From contig WHVD01000016.1 in assembly GCA_015178975.1 (NCBI GenBank), forward strand, positions 248,001-312,000: a stretch of DNA of 64,000 bases, written 5' to 3'. Position 1 is the stretch's first letter. Each line of letters opens with the position of its first letter. Below, in pieces: positions 43,813-64,000 of this stretch. The stretch comes from Hysterangium stoloniferum. Its lineage: Eukaryota > Basidiomycota > Agaricomycetes > Hysterangiales > Hysterangiaceae. The notes under the pieces were generated by a model. It was not told the origin of the DNA. It worked only from the letters and a program-made list of their open reading frames with translations, and made no database searches. The position numbers and the translations under genes were made by a program.

Positions 43813-46110
43813 ATGGATGACATCGATATGAAGGTCAAGGATGAGTCTGAAGACAAAAGCCGTGATAGAAGAGACAGGGACGACAAGGATATCAAAAGGG
43901 ACAAGGATAGGCGCGAAAAAAGCCACAGTCGTGAAAGACGTGATTCAGGTCAACATCTGCTCTTTCTTTGTAGTTCAATCTAACTTCAAGTGTGTTTACA
44001 CAGGCCGACGAAGGGCTGATCACTGGGAACCTGATGATTCGAGGCGAAACGGCGATGTAAGTATCCCACTTTTCACCCGTTTCCACCCTATTAAGCAACA
44101 TCAAACAGCGTCGTTCTAGGCGTGGGCGTTCCCGCTCTCGCAGTCGGTCAAGGTCACGTCGTAGGTCTGCTTCACCGCGGTCGAGCAGGAGACATCGTCG
44201 TTCTCGCTCTCGCTCTCGTTCTCGTTCCCGTTCGCGCGACCGAGATCGCAAAGCTACCGAGTCGTTCTCCCGTTCGCTCGGCGGCCCCATGAACGCAGAT
44301 ATTGAAGAAGCGGCGGAGATGGCCAAGAACAGCAAGAGGGAAAATAGGGTCTACGTCGGCAACCTGAGTTACGACGTCAAGTACAGGGACCTGATAGAAT
44401 TCATGAGGGGAGGTGGGTGGGGGACTCAGTTGTTGGATTCTTTTCTTTCAAATTGGGCCGAGGGGACGGTTGAGAGGCTCTGGTTTTGATTTTAAGAGTT
44501 GTGGTGATTTTTAAGGAATGGTTTTGTTAATGAGGGCTTTTCTTGGGGTTGGCAGCTGGTGAGGTCCTATTCGCCGAAGTACTCGTCACTCCCACCGGCG
44601 TTTCCAAAGGATGCGGGTCAGTGCTTATACTGTGATTGTTTTCTTTTGGTATCTGAATTATTATGCAGCATTGTCGAATTCGCGTCGCAAGAAGACGCTC
44701 AACGGGCTATAAGGGAACTTTCAGAAACCCAGCTTTTGGGTCGACCTATTTTCATCCGTGAGGTGTGTGTTGATTTTCCCCCATTTTTGACACATCTACA
44801 TGTTCAACCCTCAGGACCGTGAAACCGAGGCACGATTTGGTGCTACACCTGTACCTGGTAAGATTGGAATGGCCATGGCGGGGCAGGGTTTTAATGCTCA
44901 ACCACCACCCCGTCCCCCTCACCATAACGCCTGGGGTGGAGGTCCTTCACCCCAGAACCCAGGTAATCAGTTATACGTCGGAAACGTCTGTGATCTGTAT
45001 TTTTCATGAACTGGTAATGTTGTTAAACTGTTTACATAGCTCCCGTACCAAGCAGGATGGCAAGATTTAAAGGATTTGTTCCGCACTGCTGGGAACATCG
45101 TTCGCGCTGACATCAATATCGGTGCAGATGGTCGTGCGAAAGGCAGCGGCACCGTTATCTTTGAAACTGCTAAAGATGCCCAACAAGCTATTAGTACGTG
45201 AAATTTAATTTTGTAATCTTTTCCGATGCAAACGTCGCCGTGGTAGCCATGTATAACGGTTACGACTGGTATGGCCGTACACTTGAAGTTAGAGAGGTCA
45301 GTTTGCCCATTTTTCTCTTTTTACCCAGCAGCTAGGCCAAACGGTATAAATCCATGTCATTAATTTTAGGATCGTTATGCTGGTCTCTCTGGCAATTTCC
45401 GTGGTGGATTCCGTGGTGCCCCCCGTGGTGGGTTCCGTGGTGGGTTCCGGGGAGGTTTCAGAGGCGGTTTCCGTGGCGGTTTTGCTGGTGGCGCCGAACG
45501 CACATTCAACCAAGATGTTTACGCCGACTATTCTGGACCTGACCAGCAGATGAGCGGTGGGTTGAGAATGGACGGTGGAGGATATCATGGTGGCGGTTCA
45601 GGATTTGGCGGTCATGCCCCTTATGGTGCCGACTTTCCCGTCGAGCCCAGTCAGCAGATCATGGTTCGCAATGTGAGTGCTCTGCTTGTCGCCTTGCTGG
45701 AATAAATAACGTCCCGCTGCTAAGTTGCCTTGGTCTACTGCTCACGAAGACCTTGTGGAACTGTTTGAAACGACTGGCGTCGTGGAACAGGCTGAGATTT
45801 TGTTTGATGGCGCAAGGTCCAAAGGGGCCGGAGTGGTGCAGTTCTCTCAAGTGGTAGAAGCCGAGACGGCAATCGGTATGCTGTGTGTTTATCCCTTAGA
45901 TGGGCGCCTTTTTAATCTATTATCAACAGCCAAATTCCAACAGTACATGTATGGTGGAAGGCCCTTGGGTACGTTTGACCACGCTTATCCCGGTTCTCTA
46001 ATCATAATAAAAATGCAGATGTTCGCTTCAATGATCGCTGGCACACATTCTCCCCTGAAGCCGCGAAAGGCGGTCAGGTTGCACCCATGGCAGCTGAGCC
46101 TGTGTCTTAG
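43813..46110 (+). CDS. GBP2: Three-RRM SR-like mRNA-binding protein, Gbp2/Hrb1-like
   Basis: Start 43813 (MDDIDMKVKDESED), stop TAG 46108-46110, about a dozen exons. The N-terminus is charged (DRRDRDDKDIKRDKDRRE). An Arg/Ser domain at about 44115-44260 has many RS dipeptides. RRM1 begins RVYVGNLSYDVKYRDLIEF; RRM2 begins QLYVGNLPYQAGWQDLKDLF with RNP1-like KGSGTVIFE; an RGG/FRGG linker lies at 45375-45490; RRM3 begins QIMVRNLPWSTAHEDLVELF and ends FNDRWHTFSPEAAKGG. Three RRMs with an N-terminal RS domain match yeast Gbp2/Hrb1, shuttling proteins in mRNA quality control and export. RRM pieces are interrupted by introns, so no single exon shows a whole domain except parts of RRM3. Confidence 0.88.
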
Positions 46111-57722: not shown

Positions 57723-58001
57723 TCAACTCAGCCAAAGATATGGCCCTGCCAAGTTGGCCCTGCCACTCAGAGTGTCTGGGTGTTCAGTGCCTGGGATCCA
57801 CTCACTGACCTCTGGCAGCTGCACCTCCAATTGTTCTGCATCAGTCCATCTGCCCAGCTGGTGATATGTGCCAGGTAGGTTGGCCCTGGCTCTCAGAGTG
57901 TCTGGGTGTTCAGTGCATAGGATCAGCTCACCAACCTCCAGCACCTGCACCACCAAGTTGGCCTTGGCTCTCAGAGTGTCTGCACATTCAGTGCCTCAGA
58001 T
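57723..58001 (-). pseudogene. Decayed TPR units downstream of the NLR stop
   Basis: Immediately after the stop codon at 58002-58004 the minus strand still reads repeat fragments: a second stop, then ADTLRAKANL, an internal deletion of about 16 residues, VQVLEVGELILCTEHPDTL, GTYHQLGRWTDAEQLEVQ, then a more diverged unit (SEWIPGTEHPDTLSGRANL) that ends in a stop. The original array was therefore at least two units longer, and its end has been decaying. Confidence 0.75.
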
Positions 58002-61000
58002 CTACTCACTGTCCTCCAACACCTGCACCTCCAGTTGTTCTGCATCAGTCCATCTGCCCAGCTGATGATATGTACCAGCCAAGTTGGCCCTGGCTCTCAG
58101 AGTGTCTGGGTGTTCAGTGCCTAGGATCCGCTCACTGGCCTCTAACACCTGCACCTCCAGTTGTTCTGCATCAGTCCATCTGCCCAGCTGACGATATGTG
58201 CCAGCCAAGTTGGCCCTGGCTCTTAGAGTGTCTGGGTGTTCAGTGCCTAGGATCCGCTCACTGGCCTCTAACACCTGCACCTCCAGTTGTTCTGCATCAG
58301 TCCATCTGCCCAGCTGACAATATGTGCCAGCCAAGTTGGCCCTGGCTCTCAGAGTGTCTGGGTGTTCAGTGCCTAGGATCTGCTCACTGGCCTCTAACAC
58401 CTGCACCTCCAGTTGTTCTGCATCAGTCCATCTGCCCAGCTGACAATATGTGCCAGCCAAGTTGGCCCTGGCTCTCAGAGTGTTTGGGTGTTCAGTGCCT
58501 AGGATCTGCTCCCTGGCCTCTAACACCTGTACCTGCAGTTGTTCTGCATCAGTCCATCTGCCCAGCTGATGATATGTAACAGCCAAGTTGGCCCTGGCTC
58601 TCAGAGTGTCTGGGTGTTCAGTGCCTAGGATCTGCTCACTGGCCTCTAACACCTGCACCTGCAGTTGTTCTGCATCAGTCCATCTGCCCAGCTGACAATA
58701 TGTGCCAGCCAAGTTGGCCCTGGCTGTCAGAGTGTCTGGGTGTTCAGTGCCTAGGATCCGCTCACTGGCCTCTAACACCTGCACCTCCAGTTGTTCTGCA
58801 TCAGTCCATCTGCCCAGCTGACAATATGTGCCAGCCAAGTTGGCCCTGGCTCTCAGAGTGTTTGGGTGTTCAGTGCCTAGGATCTGCTCCCTGGCCTCTA
58901 ACACCTGCACCTCCAGTTGTTCTGCATCAGTCCATCTGCCCAGCTGATGATATGTAACAGCCAAGTTGGCCCTGGCTCTCAGAGTGTCTGGGTGTTCAGT
59001 GCCTAGGATCTGCTCACTGGCCTCTAACACCTGCACCTCCAGTTGTTCTACATCAGTCCATCTGCCCAGCTGATGATATGTAACAGCCAAGTTGGCCCTG
59101 GCTGTCAGAGTGTCTGGGTGTTCAGTGCCTAGGATCCGCTCACTGGCCTCTAACACCTGCACCTCCAGTTGTTCTACATCAGTCCATCTGCCCAGCTGAT
59201 GATATGTAACAGCCAAGTTGGCCCTGGCTGTCAGAGTGTCTGGGTGTTCAGTGCCTAGGATCCGCTCACTGGCCTCTAACACCTGCACCTCCAGTTGTTC
59301 TGCATCAGTCCATCTGCCCAGCTGACGATATGTGCCAGCCAAGTTGGCCCTGGCTGTCAGAGTGTTTGGGTGTTCAGTGCCTAGAATCTGCTCCCTGGCC
59401 TTTAACACCTGCACCTCTAGTTGTTCTGCATCAGTCCATCTGCCCAGCTGACGATATGTGCCAGCCAAGTTGGCCCTGGCTGTCAGAGTGTCTGGGTGTT
59501 CAGTGCCTAGGATCTGCTCACTGGCCTCTAACACCTGCACCTGCAGTTGTTCTGCATCAGTCCATCTGCCCAGCTGATGATATGTAACAGCCAAGTTGGC
59601 CCTGGCTGTCAGAGTGTCTGGGTGTTCAGTGCCTAGGATCCGCTCACTGGCCTCTAACACCTGCACCTCCAGTTGTTCTGCATCAGTCCATCTGCCCAGC
59701 TGACGATATGTAACAGCCAAGTTGGCCCTGGCTGTCAGAGTGTCTGGGTGTTCAGTGCCTAGGATCCGCTCACTGGCCTCTAACACCTGCACCTCCAGTT
59801 GTTCTGCATCAGTCCATCTGCCCAGCTGACGATATGTGCCAGCCAAGTTGGCCCTGGCTGTCAGAGTGTCTGGGTGTTCAGTGCCTAGGATCCGCTCACT
59901 GGCCTCTAACACCTGCACCTCCAGTTGTTCTGCATCAGTCCATCTGCCCAGCTGATGATATGTAACAGCCAAGTTGGCCCTGGCTGTCAGAGTGTCTGGG
60001 TGTTCAGTGCCTAGGATCTGCTCCCTGGCCTCTAACACCTGCACCTCCAGTTGTTCTGCATCAGTCCATCTGCCCAGCTGACGATATGTGCCAGCCAAGT
60101 TGGCCCTGGCTCTCAGAGTGTCTGGGTGTTCAGTGCCTAGGATCTGCTCCCTGGCCTCTAACACCTGCACCTCCAGTTGTTCTGCATCAGTCCATCTGCC
60201 CAGCTGACAATATGTGCCAGCCAAGTTGGCCCTGGCTCTCAGAGTGTCTGGGTGTTCAGTGCCTAGGATCTGCTCCCTGGCCTCTAACACCTGCACCTCC
60301 AGTTGTTCTGCATCAGTCCATCTGCCCAGCTGATGATATGTGCCAGCCAAGTTGGCCCTGGCTCTCAGAGTGTCTGGGTGTTCAGTGCCTAGGATCCGCT
60401 CACTGGCCTCTAACACCTGCACCTCCAGTTGTTCTGCATCAGTCCATCTGCCCAGCTGACGATATGTGCCAGCCAAGTTGGCCCTGGCTCTCAGAGTGTC
60501 TGGGTGTTCAGTGCCTAGGATCCGCTCACTGGCCTTTAACACCTGCACCTCTAGTTGTTCTGCATCAGTCCATCTGCCCAGCTGACGATATGTGCCAGCC
60601 AAGTTGGCCCTGGCTCTCAGAGTGTTTGGGTGTTCAGTGCCTAGGATCTGCTCCCTGGCCTCTAACACCTGCACCTGCAGTTGTTCTGTATCAGTCCATC
60701 TGCCCAGCTGATGATATGTGCCAGCCAAGTTGGCCCTGGCTGTCAGAGTGTCTGGGTGTTCAGTGCCTAGGATCCGCTCACTGGCCTCTAACACCTGCAC
60801 CTGCAGTTGTTCTGCATCAGTCCATCTGCCCAGCTGATGATATGTAACAGCCAAGTTGGCCCTGGCTGTCAGAGTGTCTGGGTGTTCAGTGCCTAGGATC
60901 TGCTCACTGGCCTCTAACACCTGCACCTGCAGTTGTTCTGCATCAGTCCATCTGCCCAGCTGACGATATGTGCCAGCCAAGTTGGCCCTGGCTCTCAGAG

Positions 61001-64000
61001 TGTCTGGGTGTTCAGTGCCTAGGATCTGCTCCCTGGCCTCTAACACCTGCACCTCTAGTTGTTCTGCATCAGTCCATCTGCCCAGCTGACGATATGTGCC
61101 AGCCAAGTTGGCCCTGGCTCTCAGAGTGTCTGGGTGTTCAGTGCCTAGGATCTGCTCCCTGGCCTCTAACACCTGCACCTGCAGTTGTTCTGCATCAGTC
61201 CATCTGCCCAGCTGATGATATGTAACAGCCAAGTTGGCCCTGGCTGTCAGAGTGTCTAGGTGTTCAGTGCCTAGGATCTGCTCCCTGGCCTCTAACACCT
61301 GCACCTCCAGTTGTTCTGCATCAGTCCATCTGCCCAGCTGACGATATGTGCCAGCCAAGTTGGCCCTGGCTCTCAGAGTGTCTGGGTGTTCAGTGCCTAG
61401 GATCTGCTCACTGGCCTCTAACACCTGCACCTGCAGTTGTTCTGCATCAGTCCATCTGCCCAGCTGACGATATGTGCCAGCCAAGTTGGCCCTGGCTCTC
61501 AGAGTGTCTGGATGTTCAGTGCCTAGGATCTGCTCCCTGGCCTCTAACACCTGCACCTCCAGTTGTTCTGCATCAGTCCATCTGCCCAGCTGATAATATA
61601 TAACAGCCAAGTTGGCCCTGGCTCTCAGAGTGCTTGGGTGTTCAGTGCCTAGGATTTGCTCCCTGTTTTCCAGTACCTTTAACTGTAGCAATTCTGCATT
61701 CAACCATTTACCAGCCTGGGTATACACATTGGCTGATCTCTCGCACACATCATCATAGTATCCCTCCTTCTTTACATCAGCCACACCCTGAATCACAATA
61801 ACATGAGGCAACAGTTCTTTTCTGAATAAAATGTCATCCATTGTGTCAGATCTATTGATACTACCTACTATCAATGCTCTTGCTGCATAATAATATGGTG
61901 TATCATCTTCTCCTAGTGCTTGATATCGTATCCACATATGTATCATTGGGTGCATTGTCCATGAATATGAATCTTGTGTAGTATGGTCTCTAGTGAGAAG
62001 TGAATAATCACAGAGCACTTGTATGGCTAATCTGAACTTTACACTTTCCCACTGTCCATCACTAGTACATCTGAGTAGCTGAGCTGGAAGATCTGATGAA
62101 GTGGTTTGTAATCTCCCATCATATGTATTTGCTAGTGGGAATTCTGCAGCTTGTTTAAAAATCCTTTCCATGATATTTTGGTGGTGAAAGAATCCCAGAA
62201 CCTTCAAAACAAATAATGCATCTTGTGCACTTTTCATTAATATGGCCTGCTTTTCAATCAGATCATATGACAGTCTTAAAGTACTATAAACAGTGTGATT
62301 ATATCCTAGTGCCCCTTTCATTGAAGGATGGTCTGCATCAAAAATCTCTGAGTGATATTTTTCATGCATCATTAGATACTCTCTAACTCCACAGAGTCCA
62401 GTTAAAATGGCAGCTCCAGCAATATCTATTGCAAGAGGCAAGAAGCCAAGTCGAGCAACAATCTTCTCCAACAATTCCTGTGGGATAATATTTGATTTCT
62501 TGTCAAATTTAGCTGCAGCTTGAAAGAGGGCAAGTGCTTGATCACTCTCCATTGAGAGAACCTCCAATGAGTCTATAACATGGCTGGCCAGTCCAGGATT
62601 CCGGCTAGTAATTAAGACATGAGTCTGGCACTGTGGCAAATAGTCTTTAACAACTCCATCCATTCCATCAGCATTGTCAAGGATGAGGAGACACTTCTTT
62701 TGAGTGGCTGTAAGCCACCTCAATACTCCCTCTGGAGACTTTTCGATGCCCTTGGATTTGGCCTCGAAATCATCAGCAATACTTGAAAATCCATTTGTTA
62801 ATGTTTCTGCATTTGTGCTATCTATCCAGAATATCCTCCAAAAGTGACTTCATACTCTACTGTAAGCATTGGTAAGAAGAAACAAAGTATTACCAGCTTA
62901 CCAGTCATTGCTAACCAGCTTTTCAATGAATTTCAAACAAATCTGAGTTTTCCCAACTCCTCCCATATCATACAAAAGGAAATGATTCCACATTCGATGG
63001 GAACTCTCAGAAGAAAAAAAATCTTTGAGTCTTGTGAGATATTTCTCCTGTCCCACAAATCTTGGACTAGAATGGTGCTTAGACATGTATAAAGGTCCTT
63101 GGAAGTTATCCTCTGTTTAATAAAGTTAGCCTGTGTATGTCTATTTATGGCAACACACCATTTTGCTGATTAAATTTAATCCACTGGGCATGAACAGTGG
63201 CTGGAGCTTTCTTAATCATATCTTGTACAGTGCACAGCACAGACTTGTAGTCATTATCATTGACAGACTGAAATTTGGACATCCCAGTGTGATCCTTCTG
63301 CATGCTTATTGGTTCTATGTTCACAGCCCCGGGCAAGACAGCAGATGCTTTGGGAACAATCTCCATGTATGCTGTAATTTAGCATATTTGCAAGGTATAT
63401 TAGAATTCTCAAACTCACAATTGCAGAACTATGTCCAGGGAGACTAGTTGGTAAGGTTTCATAGAAAAACTTCATGTGAAAATGGGCAGTGATGGCATTA
63501 AAATAGGATATTTGTTCCTGTAATGGCTCAGAGTGAGTGGTTAAATGCTTCAACAAAATATTGTTTGGCCGACTGCATAGCGAAAGAAGTTTTGGCACCA
63601 TGTCTGTGCCTTGGTGAGGTGTACCAAGGAAGACAATGCCATATGTTGACAAATGGATCCATTTATGTGGCAGGAGATGCCCTTCATGGGCAACATTTGC
63701 TTGTATTAAGGCCTGTTCCCAAGCATGAATGACGCGTAGCAGACAGATTATTACGAGATGACGTACACTCTTGAGAATAATGCCGCCTAGGCTATGAGCA
63801 ATGAAGATTATTGGGCGTTCCTACGGAAAATGGGAAACAATCATCAGCACGCAAGACAAACAACAGTGATTCTCAGTCAGTGAACCTTAGTTTCTCCTGT
63901 TTCCCTGGACATGGAAAGTCGTGCAAGGAGGTCCTGTGCGTGACCATGCAGAGTCTGCTCAGACAATGAACTATTTGTGTAGGCATCGTAACCATACGAC
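58002..64000 (-). CDS. Fungal NLR: SesB-like alpha/beta hydrolase - NB-ARC - 29 TPR (5' end outside window)
   Basis: Read on the minus strand from the window edge: SLSEQTLHGHAQDLL, intron, IIFIAHSLGGIILKS (nucleophile Ser in S-L-G-G), intron, STYGIVFLGTPHQGT, intron at about 63415, ASAVLPGAVN. This is the SesB-type lipase/esterase head of fungal NLRs. Next, FVGQEKYLTRLKDFF and YDMGGVGKTQICLKF (Walker A), an intron about 62845-62892, IFWIDSTNAET, KKCLLILDNADG (Walker B), VLITSR, GFLPLAID (GLPLA-like) and MHPMIHMW (MHD-like). From about 61690 down, 29 TPR units of 42 residues run to a stop at 58002-58004. NB-ARC proteins with hydrolase heads and superstructure repeats act in fungal heterokaryon incompatibility and probably immunity: ligand binding by the repeats triggers oligomerisation and activates the head. 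The main exon (58002-62800) has no intron. The 5' end is missing. Confidence 0.88.
58005..61690 (-). repeat. 29-unit, 126-nt tandem array encoding kinesin-light-chain-type TPRs
   Basis: Each unit translates as L-[EQ]-VQVLEA-[RS]-E-[QR]-ILGTEHP-[DN]-TL-[RT]-ARANLA-[GV]-TY-[RHC]-QLGRWTDAEQ. Units are nearly identical at DNA level, with the same few sites varying. The unit nearest the NB-ARC (about 61570-61690) is the most diverged (NREQ, PSTL, VIYYQ). Since 126 is a multiple of 3, the opposite strand is also open in long repetitive frames, which I treat as shadows. Confidence 0.95.

Follow-up and report, generated by a model that had tools for sequence, protein, structure and literature searches.

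The genome of the basidiomycete Hysterangium stoloniferum encodes what is probably an intracellular NLR-type non-self receptor. The predicted protein combines a SesB-like hydrolase head, an NB-ARC domain and a long array of tetratricopeptide repeats (TPR), and the array appears to be a recombining and diversifying sensor. We assign this interpretation a probability of about three in four. The gene is located on the minus strand at the end of a stretch of 64,000 nucleotides (contig WHVD01000016.1, positions 248,001 to 312,000), which we call the window; coordinates refer to it unless another contig is named. The domains, the gene structure, the size of the family, the homogenisation of the repeats, the purifying selection on the hydrolase and NB-ARC parts and the amino-acid excess on the concave TPR face were read directly from the data.

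Variation in the TPR array

The array consists of complete units of 42 amino acids (126 bp), all in register and without an indel or a stop codon, followed by a 10-residue partial unit directly before the stop codon at 58002. Tandem Repeats Finder reports 29.5 copies at 57953-61665. A first-pass annotation of the window had described 29 near-identical units. Their number is correct, and near-identity holds for 28 of the 29, unit 1 sharing 33 of its 42 residues with the consensus. The mean pairwise identity of units 2-29 is 96.2% for DNA (minimum 91.3%) and 91.2% for protein, in agreement with the recent expansion or homogenisation that the annotation proposed. The protein value, obtained over 28 units, places the gene among the NLRs with high internal conservation, defined by more than 85% repeat identity over at least 100 amino acids.

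At the DNA level 27 of the 28 homogenised units are distinct, and there is one identical pair. At each of codons 2, 9, 11, 19, 22, 29 and 32, four or more units differ from the major amino acid by a common minor one, a count that no single synonymous variant reaches. The seven variable sites form 21 combinations in the 28 units, and all four combinations are observed for 17 of the 21 site pairs, as expected if the units recombine. No higher-order structure was seen in the window array, where identity is nearly flat with distance at lags 1-14.

It is improbable that the exact unit numbers (29 here and at least 89 in a paralog described below) are an assembly artefact. Errors in the reading or assembly of comparable arrays are on record (PMC12222747), but such an origin does not agree well with a single identical pair among the 28 units or with frames that are open throughout; in the longer array, duplicated blocks were checked by identity-by-lag only.

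The assignment of the concave face rests on canonical TPR numbering, with position 1 placed at unit residue 21 according to Pfam alignments and positions 2, 5, 9, 12, 13, 33 and 34 described as the most variable and concave-exposed ones (PMC1261162). We compared the entire window array with 21 paralog arrays, mostly represented by their first 12 units, from fetched loci with at least nine units and all steps being multiples of 42. The first analysis was restricted to 15 arrays with mean heterogeneity below 0.22 (our own cut-off); the seven arrays dropped at that point (L055, L062, L065-L069) were later restored for the 22-array result.

In the window array, nonsynonymous diversity (piN) at the seven concave positions is 4.54 times the overall synonymous diversity (piS), compared with 0.64 elsewhere in the unit (permutation p = 0.0016). 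The respective ratios are 1.87 and 0.47 for the 14 other homogenised arrays pooled (p = 0.0006) and 1.50 and 0.44 for the 21 paralog arrays pooled (p = 5e-5). Concave piN exceeds that of the remaining positions in 22 of 22 arrays. In a control with 42 register shifts the true register ranks first for the window array as well as for the 14 others. Thus the amino-acid differences are concentrated on the predicted ligand-facing positions.

Gene structure, domains and intactness

The predicted gene has seven exons and 1995 codons (1995 amino acids). The first-pass annotation had placed it at 58002..64000; the stop codon is indeed at 58002, and the gene extends beyond the window to an ATG 326 bp past its edge (64326), read from the adjoining contig sequence. 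Most of the NB-ARC domain and the TPR array are contained in a long frame at 62849-58002. All six introns are GT-AG. Three splice sites are weak, namely the exon 2 donor (GTTCAC) and the acceptors of exons 5 (gag) and 7 (aag). The GTTCAC donor is identical in 13 of 13 aligned paralogs, and the aag acceptor is found in all seven paralogs whose alignment extends that far. The exon 5 acceptor reads cag in nine of the 13 paralogs, tag in two and gag in L042, and is unreadable in L056.

Junction GT and AG are kept across the 13 paralogs with the exception of L051, where GC replaces GT at the donor of intron 1 and exons 1-6 are otherwise open, and of L056, whose alignment is incomplete. Exons 1-6 are open in nine of these paralogs; L045, L046 and L048 have a stop or a frameshift and L056 is partly aligned. 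Comparison of the window gene with the nine open-frame paralogs gives dN/dS values of 0.25-0.44 for exons 1-6, and over the NB-ARC part of exon 7 the values against 15 paralogs are 0.26-0.47.

All the hydrolase and NB-ARC motifs quoted in the first-pass annotation are present, and the NLR architecture it proposed is recovered by Pfam. In the spliced N-terminal part, NB-ARC (PF00931) is matched with E = 3.3e-11 (43.4 bits, cut-off 23.5) and the alpha/beta-hydrolase head by DUF676 with E = 1.3e-4 (21.9 bits, narrowly above the cut-off of 20.3); TPR_10 is matched in 29 stretches of the gene. DUF676 is also above the cut-off in both paralogs scanned, L050 and L055. The HSLG serine is retained in 12 of 13 paralogs, which are all those readable there (SHSLGG in L047, AHSLGR in L048), and so is the histidine of KDHxG in the 12 readable at that place. 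The conserved histidine of exon 5 is a putative catalytic residue.

With an NB-ARC domain having an intact P-loop, a hydrolase head and C-terminal repeats, the gene belongs to the SesB-like/NB-ARC/TPR class of fungal NLR (STAND) proteins, where the head is understood as the merged “sesB-like or alpha/beta hydrolase” category of PMC4986451 and was scored by DUF676, not by a SesB-specific profile. A patatin head, characteristic of the PLP-1 family, was absent from the Pfam matches with E values of up to 1. The gene also falls outside the HET-D/E/R (HNWD) family: NACHT scores 14.4 bits against a cut-off of 26.7, and neither HET nor WD40 is in the Pfam lists. An amphipathic N-terminal helix is no more than mildly indicated and is not claimed, as rank 54 of 760 is the best reached by an 11-residue stretch among the first six.

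Eight of the 29 TPR units were used as a query against PDB sequences. The best match is kinesin light chain 1 (7ai4, 8.8e-32). Two entries for TPR-like repeats, 4y6w and 4y6c, are matched as well; 4y6c bears the name of P. anserina and gives 2.4e-20. Entries 7ai4 and 4y6c are deposited repeat domains of the same repeat type, and the matched parts lack hydrolase and NB-ARC. A housekeeping kinesin light chain is ruled out because the likeness is limited to the repeats while hydrolase and NB-ARC are present.

Several observations weigh against a functional receptor with a selected sensor. Over whole units, piN/piS is 1.29 (interval 0.50-6.65), so selection is visible by position only. Concave piN fails to exceed piS in three of the 22 arrays (L050, 1.0; L069, 0.99; L070, 0.75), and in the window the canonical positions 5, 13 and 34 are invariant while the non-canonical 24, 31 and 41 vary. 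The hydrolase barely clears its Pfam cut-off and has no significant match among PDB sequences. The intron 4 acceptor (gag) is weak, the stop codon lies two codons upstream of that of L042, and several paralogs are broken. In L042 the stop occupies unit residue 13; the window gene has a stop codon at this residue too, behind its extra earlier one.

These features could be read as signs of gene decay accompanied by neutral expansion of a 126-bp minisatellite: there are an extra early stop, a weak acceptor, eroded repeat remnants and broken paralogs, and whole-unit piN/piS is indistinguishable from 1. We consider decay very unlikely. It would hardly leave 29 units without a frameshift, purifying selection on exons 1-6 and on the NB-ARC part of exon 7, or variation that clusters at ligand-facing positions in the correct register. 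The first-pass annotation had made relic status depend on an intact start exon beyond the window and on hydrolase and NB-ARC exons being joined. The start exon was found, and the predicted joins are in frame at junctions conserved in paralogs. Since comparison with paralogs shows conserved exons subject to purifying selection, the gene is probably not a relic, although several paralogs are broken. The gene in the window is likely to be functional; its doubtful point is intron 4.

A family of related loci

The genome searched comprises 111 Mb in 554 contigs. The best candidates were scored and gave no fewer than 111 rows with the NB-ARC query and at least 219 hydrolase matches; 91 of the 111 NB-ARC rows (20 short secondary rows were omitted) and 83 of the 219 hydrolase matches were used for the locus count. 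Merging of the NB-ARC rows resulted in 86 loci; in at least 64 of them a hydrolase match lies at most 5.5 kb upstream in the same orientation, broken copies included. The gene is therefore not a singular case.

TPR arrays were examined in 30 fetched NB-ARC loci (L041-L070, the window gene among them), and 22 of the 30 keep 12 in-register units within 1.5 kb behind the NB-ARC domain (L044 with stops in the first unit). Broken family members are common. The paralog at C157:171862 has at least 89 TPR units with a mean identity of 81%; they share a single open frame that spans 4147 codons or more and has not closed at the end of the fetched sequence. Long open frames are also present at two further loci of C157 and at one locus of C162. 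Open-frame lengths from the NB-ARC search are approximate, being 89 amino acids above the measured frame in both cases checked (the window gene and L042). At C1:1.05-1.50 Mb and C112:0.53-0.71 Mb members of the NLR family are clustered, and open copies lie close to broken ones.

For 154 of the 254 units from the 22 arrays, the closest unit is found exclusively within the same array, and a further 24 are ties; 11.7 would be expected by chance. All 28 window units have the nearest neighbour within their own array, compared with none of the 11 units of L042 (three ties), so homogenisation is uneven. More than half of the units in L042, L060 and L065-L069 have the nearest neighbour in another array. 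The mean closeness of units is 0.950 between the window and L042 and 0.943 within L042. Exchange of whole units between loci finds no support, as none of the units occurs in identical form in two of the 22 arrays, but conversion between loci or a recent common origin is possible. L042 is 95% identical to the window gene over the NB-ARC query, and its stop is preceded by 15 complete units compared with 29 in the window gene. The predicted arrays have thus roughly doubled or halved in length since the split of the two loci at dS of about 0.05.

The basidiomycete origin of the DNA, suggested by the first-pass annotation, agrees with the 5.8S/ITS2 (internal transcribed spacer 2) of the genome and with 150 DUF6533 matches (of 402 candidates, 150 were scored), many of which are on contigs such as C24, C535 and C542. 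We take both markers to be diagnostic of agaricomycetes. The Rfam model finds five 5.8S places in the genome. Two of the copies, L071 and L072 (1501-1655), agree at 149 of 155 positions; by eye, five of the six differences pair CG in L071 with TG or CA in L072, a pattern resembling a ribosomal DNA copy decayed by methylation or repeat-induced point mutation (RIP). Elsewhere in the window, SR-rich and RGG-rich frames at 44061-44486 and 45370-45702 apparently belong to an ordinary RNA-binding protein gene (named by eye).

Table 1. Coordinates of the predicted receptor gene, its repeats and a long paralog array
Feature	Position	Strand	Content
Exon 1	64326-64175	-	Carries the ATG; entirely beyond the window
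Exon 2	64114-63886 (in-window part 63886..64000)	-	N-terminal hydrolase part; kept in paralogs
Exon 3	63767..63820	-	Nucleophile elbow AHSLGG
Exon 4	63419..63712	-	Hydrolase core, FLGTPHQGT
Exon 5	63159..63360	-	Hydrolase end, conserved VPKASAVLPGAVNIEPISMQKDHTGMSKF, linker
Exon 6	62902..63112	-	NB-ARC start, P-loop GGVGKTQ
Exon 7	58002..62847	-	Remaining NB-ARC (LLILDNAD, VLITSR, GFLPLA, MHPMIHMW), TPR array, stop TAG
TPR array, 29 complete 42-aa units	58035..61688	-	Unit 1 divergent, units 2-29 homogenised
About 2 eroded TPR units past the stop	57723..57995	-	Likewise past the stop of paralog L042
Paralog with at least 89 units (L065 + L073)	C157:170362-184500		In-frame units in one exon

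Known systems and possible functions

The architecture and the evolutionary mode of the window gene are already known. Podospora Pa_2_10340 (PMC4986451) has the same architecture and TPRs with high internal conservation, varies from 2 to more than 15 repeats between strains and has positively selected sites on the concave face. The suggestion that the gene could be a new system is not borne out in that form, since these traits have been published for an ascomycete. The window gene differs in its basidiomycete host, its 29 units and its large paralog family; it is likened to Pa_2_10340 by architecture, not by orthology, and its difference in repeat number is known between paralogs (29 vs 15) instead of strains.

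By analogy with such receptors, the TPR superhelix would be the sensor. Recombination would expand, delete and homogenise its units, and selection would retain variety at the ligand-contacting residues. A bound ligand would release the NB-ARC switch and lead to receptor assembly, the assembled NB-ARC may activate the N-terminal serine hydrolase, and the active hydrolase could produce a lipid or ester cleavage signal or local cell death. We infer the ligand, oligomerisation, hydrolase activity and cell death from this likeness.

What the receptor would recognise can be considered in two ways. It may detect molecules of bacteria, viruses or other fungi, the family being an immune repertoire. A large expanded family with diversification of the ligand face argues for such xenorecognition, as does the fungal immune-system view expressed in literature titles and abstracts, and we give it somewhat less than an even chance.

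Alternatively, the gene may be an allorecognition determinant of somatic or heterokaryon incompatibility acting after hyphal fusion. Ascomycete NLRs with NB-ARC/TPR (PLP-1) or with homogenised repeats (HET-D/E) work in incompatibility, and repeat shuffling would generate strain-specific alleles. PLP-1, with a demonstrated role together with SEC-9, likewise has NB-ARC/TPR and a lipid-hydrolase head, but this head is a patatin, not the DUF676-like alpha/beta hydrolase found here. HET-D/E/R (HET/NACHT/WD40) share homogenised repeats with few hypervariable positions and differ from the window gene in the head, the nucleotide-binding domain and the repeat fold. Allorecognition is plausible, though we give it clearly less than an even chance: at least 64 loci are far above the number of incompatibility loci known per species, and a Podospora review names only four incompatibility-controlling NLRs among 77 NLR genes.

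According to a survey of fungal NLRs (PMC9815663), SesB-like heads are nearly absent among basidiomycetes, with which the family described here contrasts. The survey also describes basidiomycete N-termini as poorly annotated, so an annotation gap may explain a part of this contrast. An expansion of NACHT-WD proteins is reported for the Piriformospora indica genome, where NB-ARC and TPR_4 are among the expanded domains (PMC3192844). No expanded SesB-like/NB-ARC/TPR family of a basidiomycete was found in the titles and abstract openings returned by searches of an open-licence library. The arrays are longer than the maximum of 21 highly conserved TPRs in the 2014 survey (PMC4986451). The novelty lies in how large the family is in a basidiomycete and in how long its arrays are.

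The mechanisms of somatic incompatibility in basidiomycetes have been called completely unknown (PMC8229728). With apparently intact genes, strong homogenisation and selection on the ligand face, the family is a concrete set of candidates for this role. A wider view, which we offer as a speculation and consider unlikely in its full extent, is that some basidiomycetes may have a large and fast-shuffling SesB-like/NB-ARC repertoire with giant TPR sensors that reach at least 89 units. The units would serve as cassettes with a few switchable ligand-face residues giving combinatorial specificity along an open-ended superhelix, and the repertoire would include determinants of somatic incompatibility.
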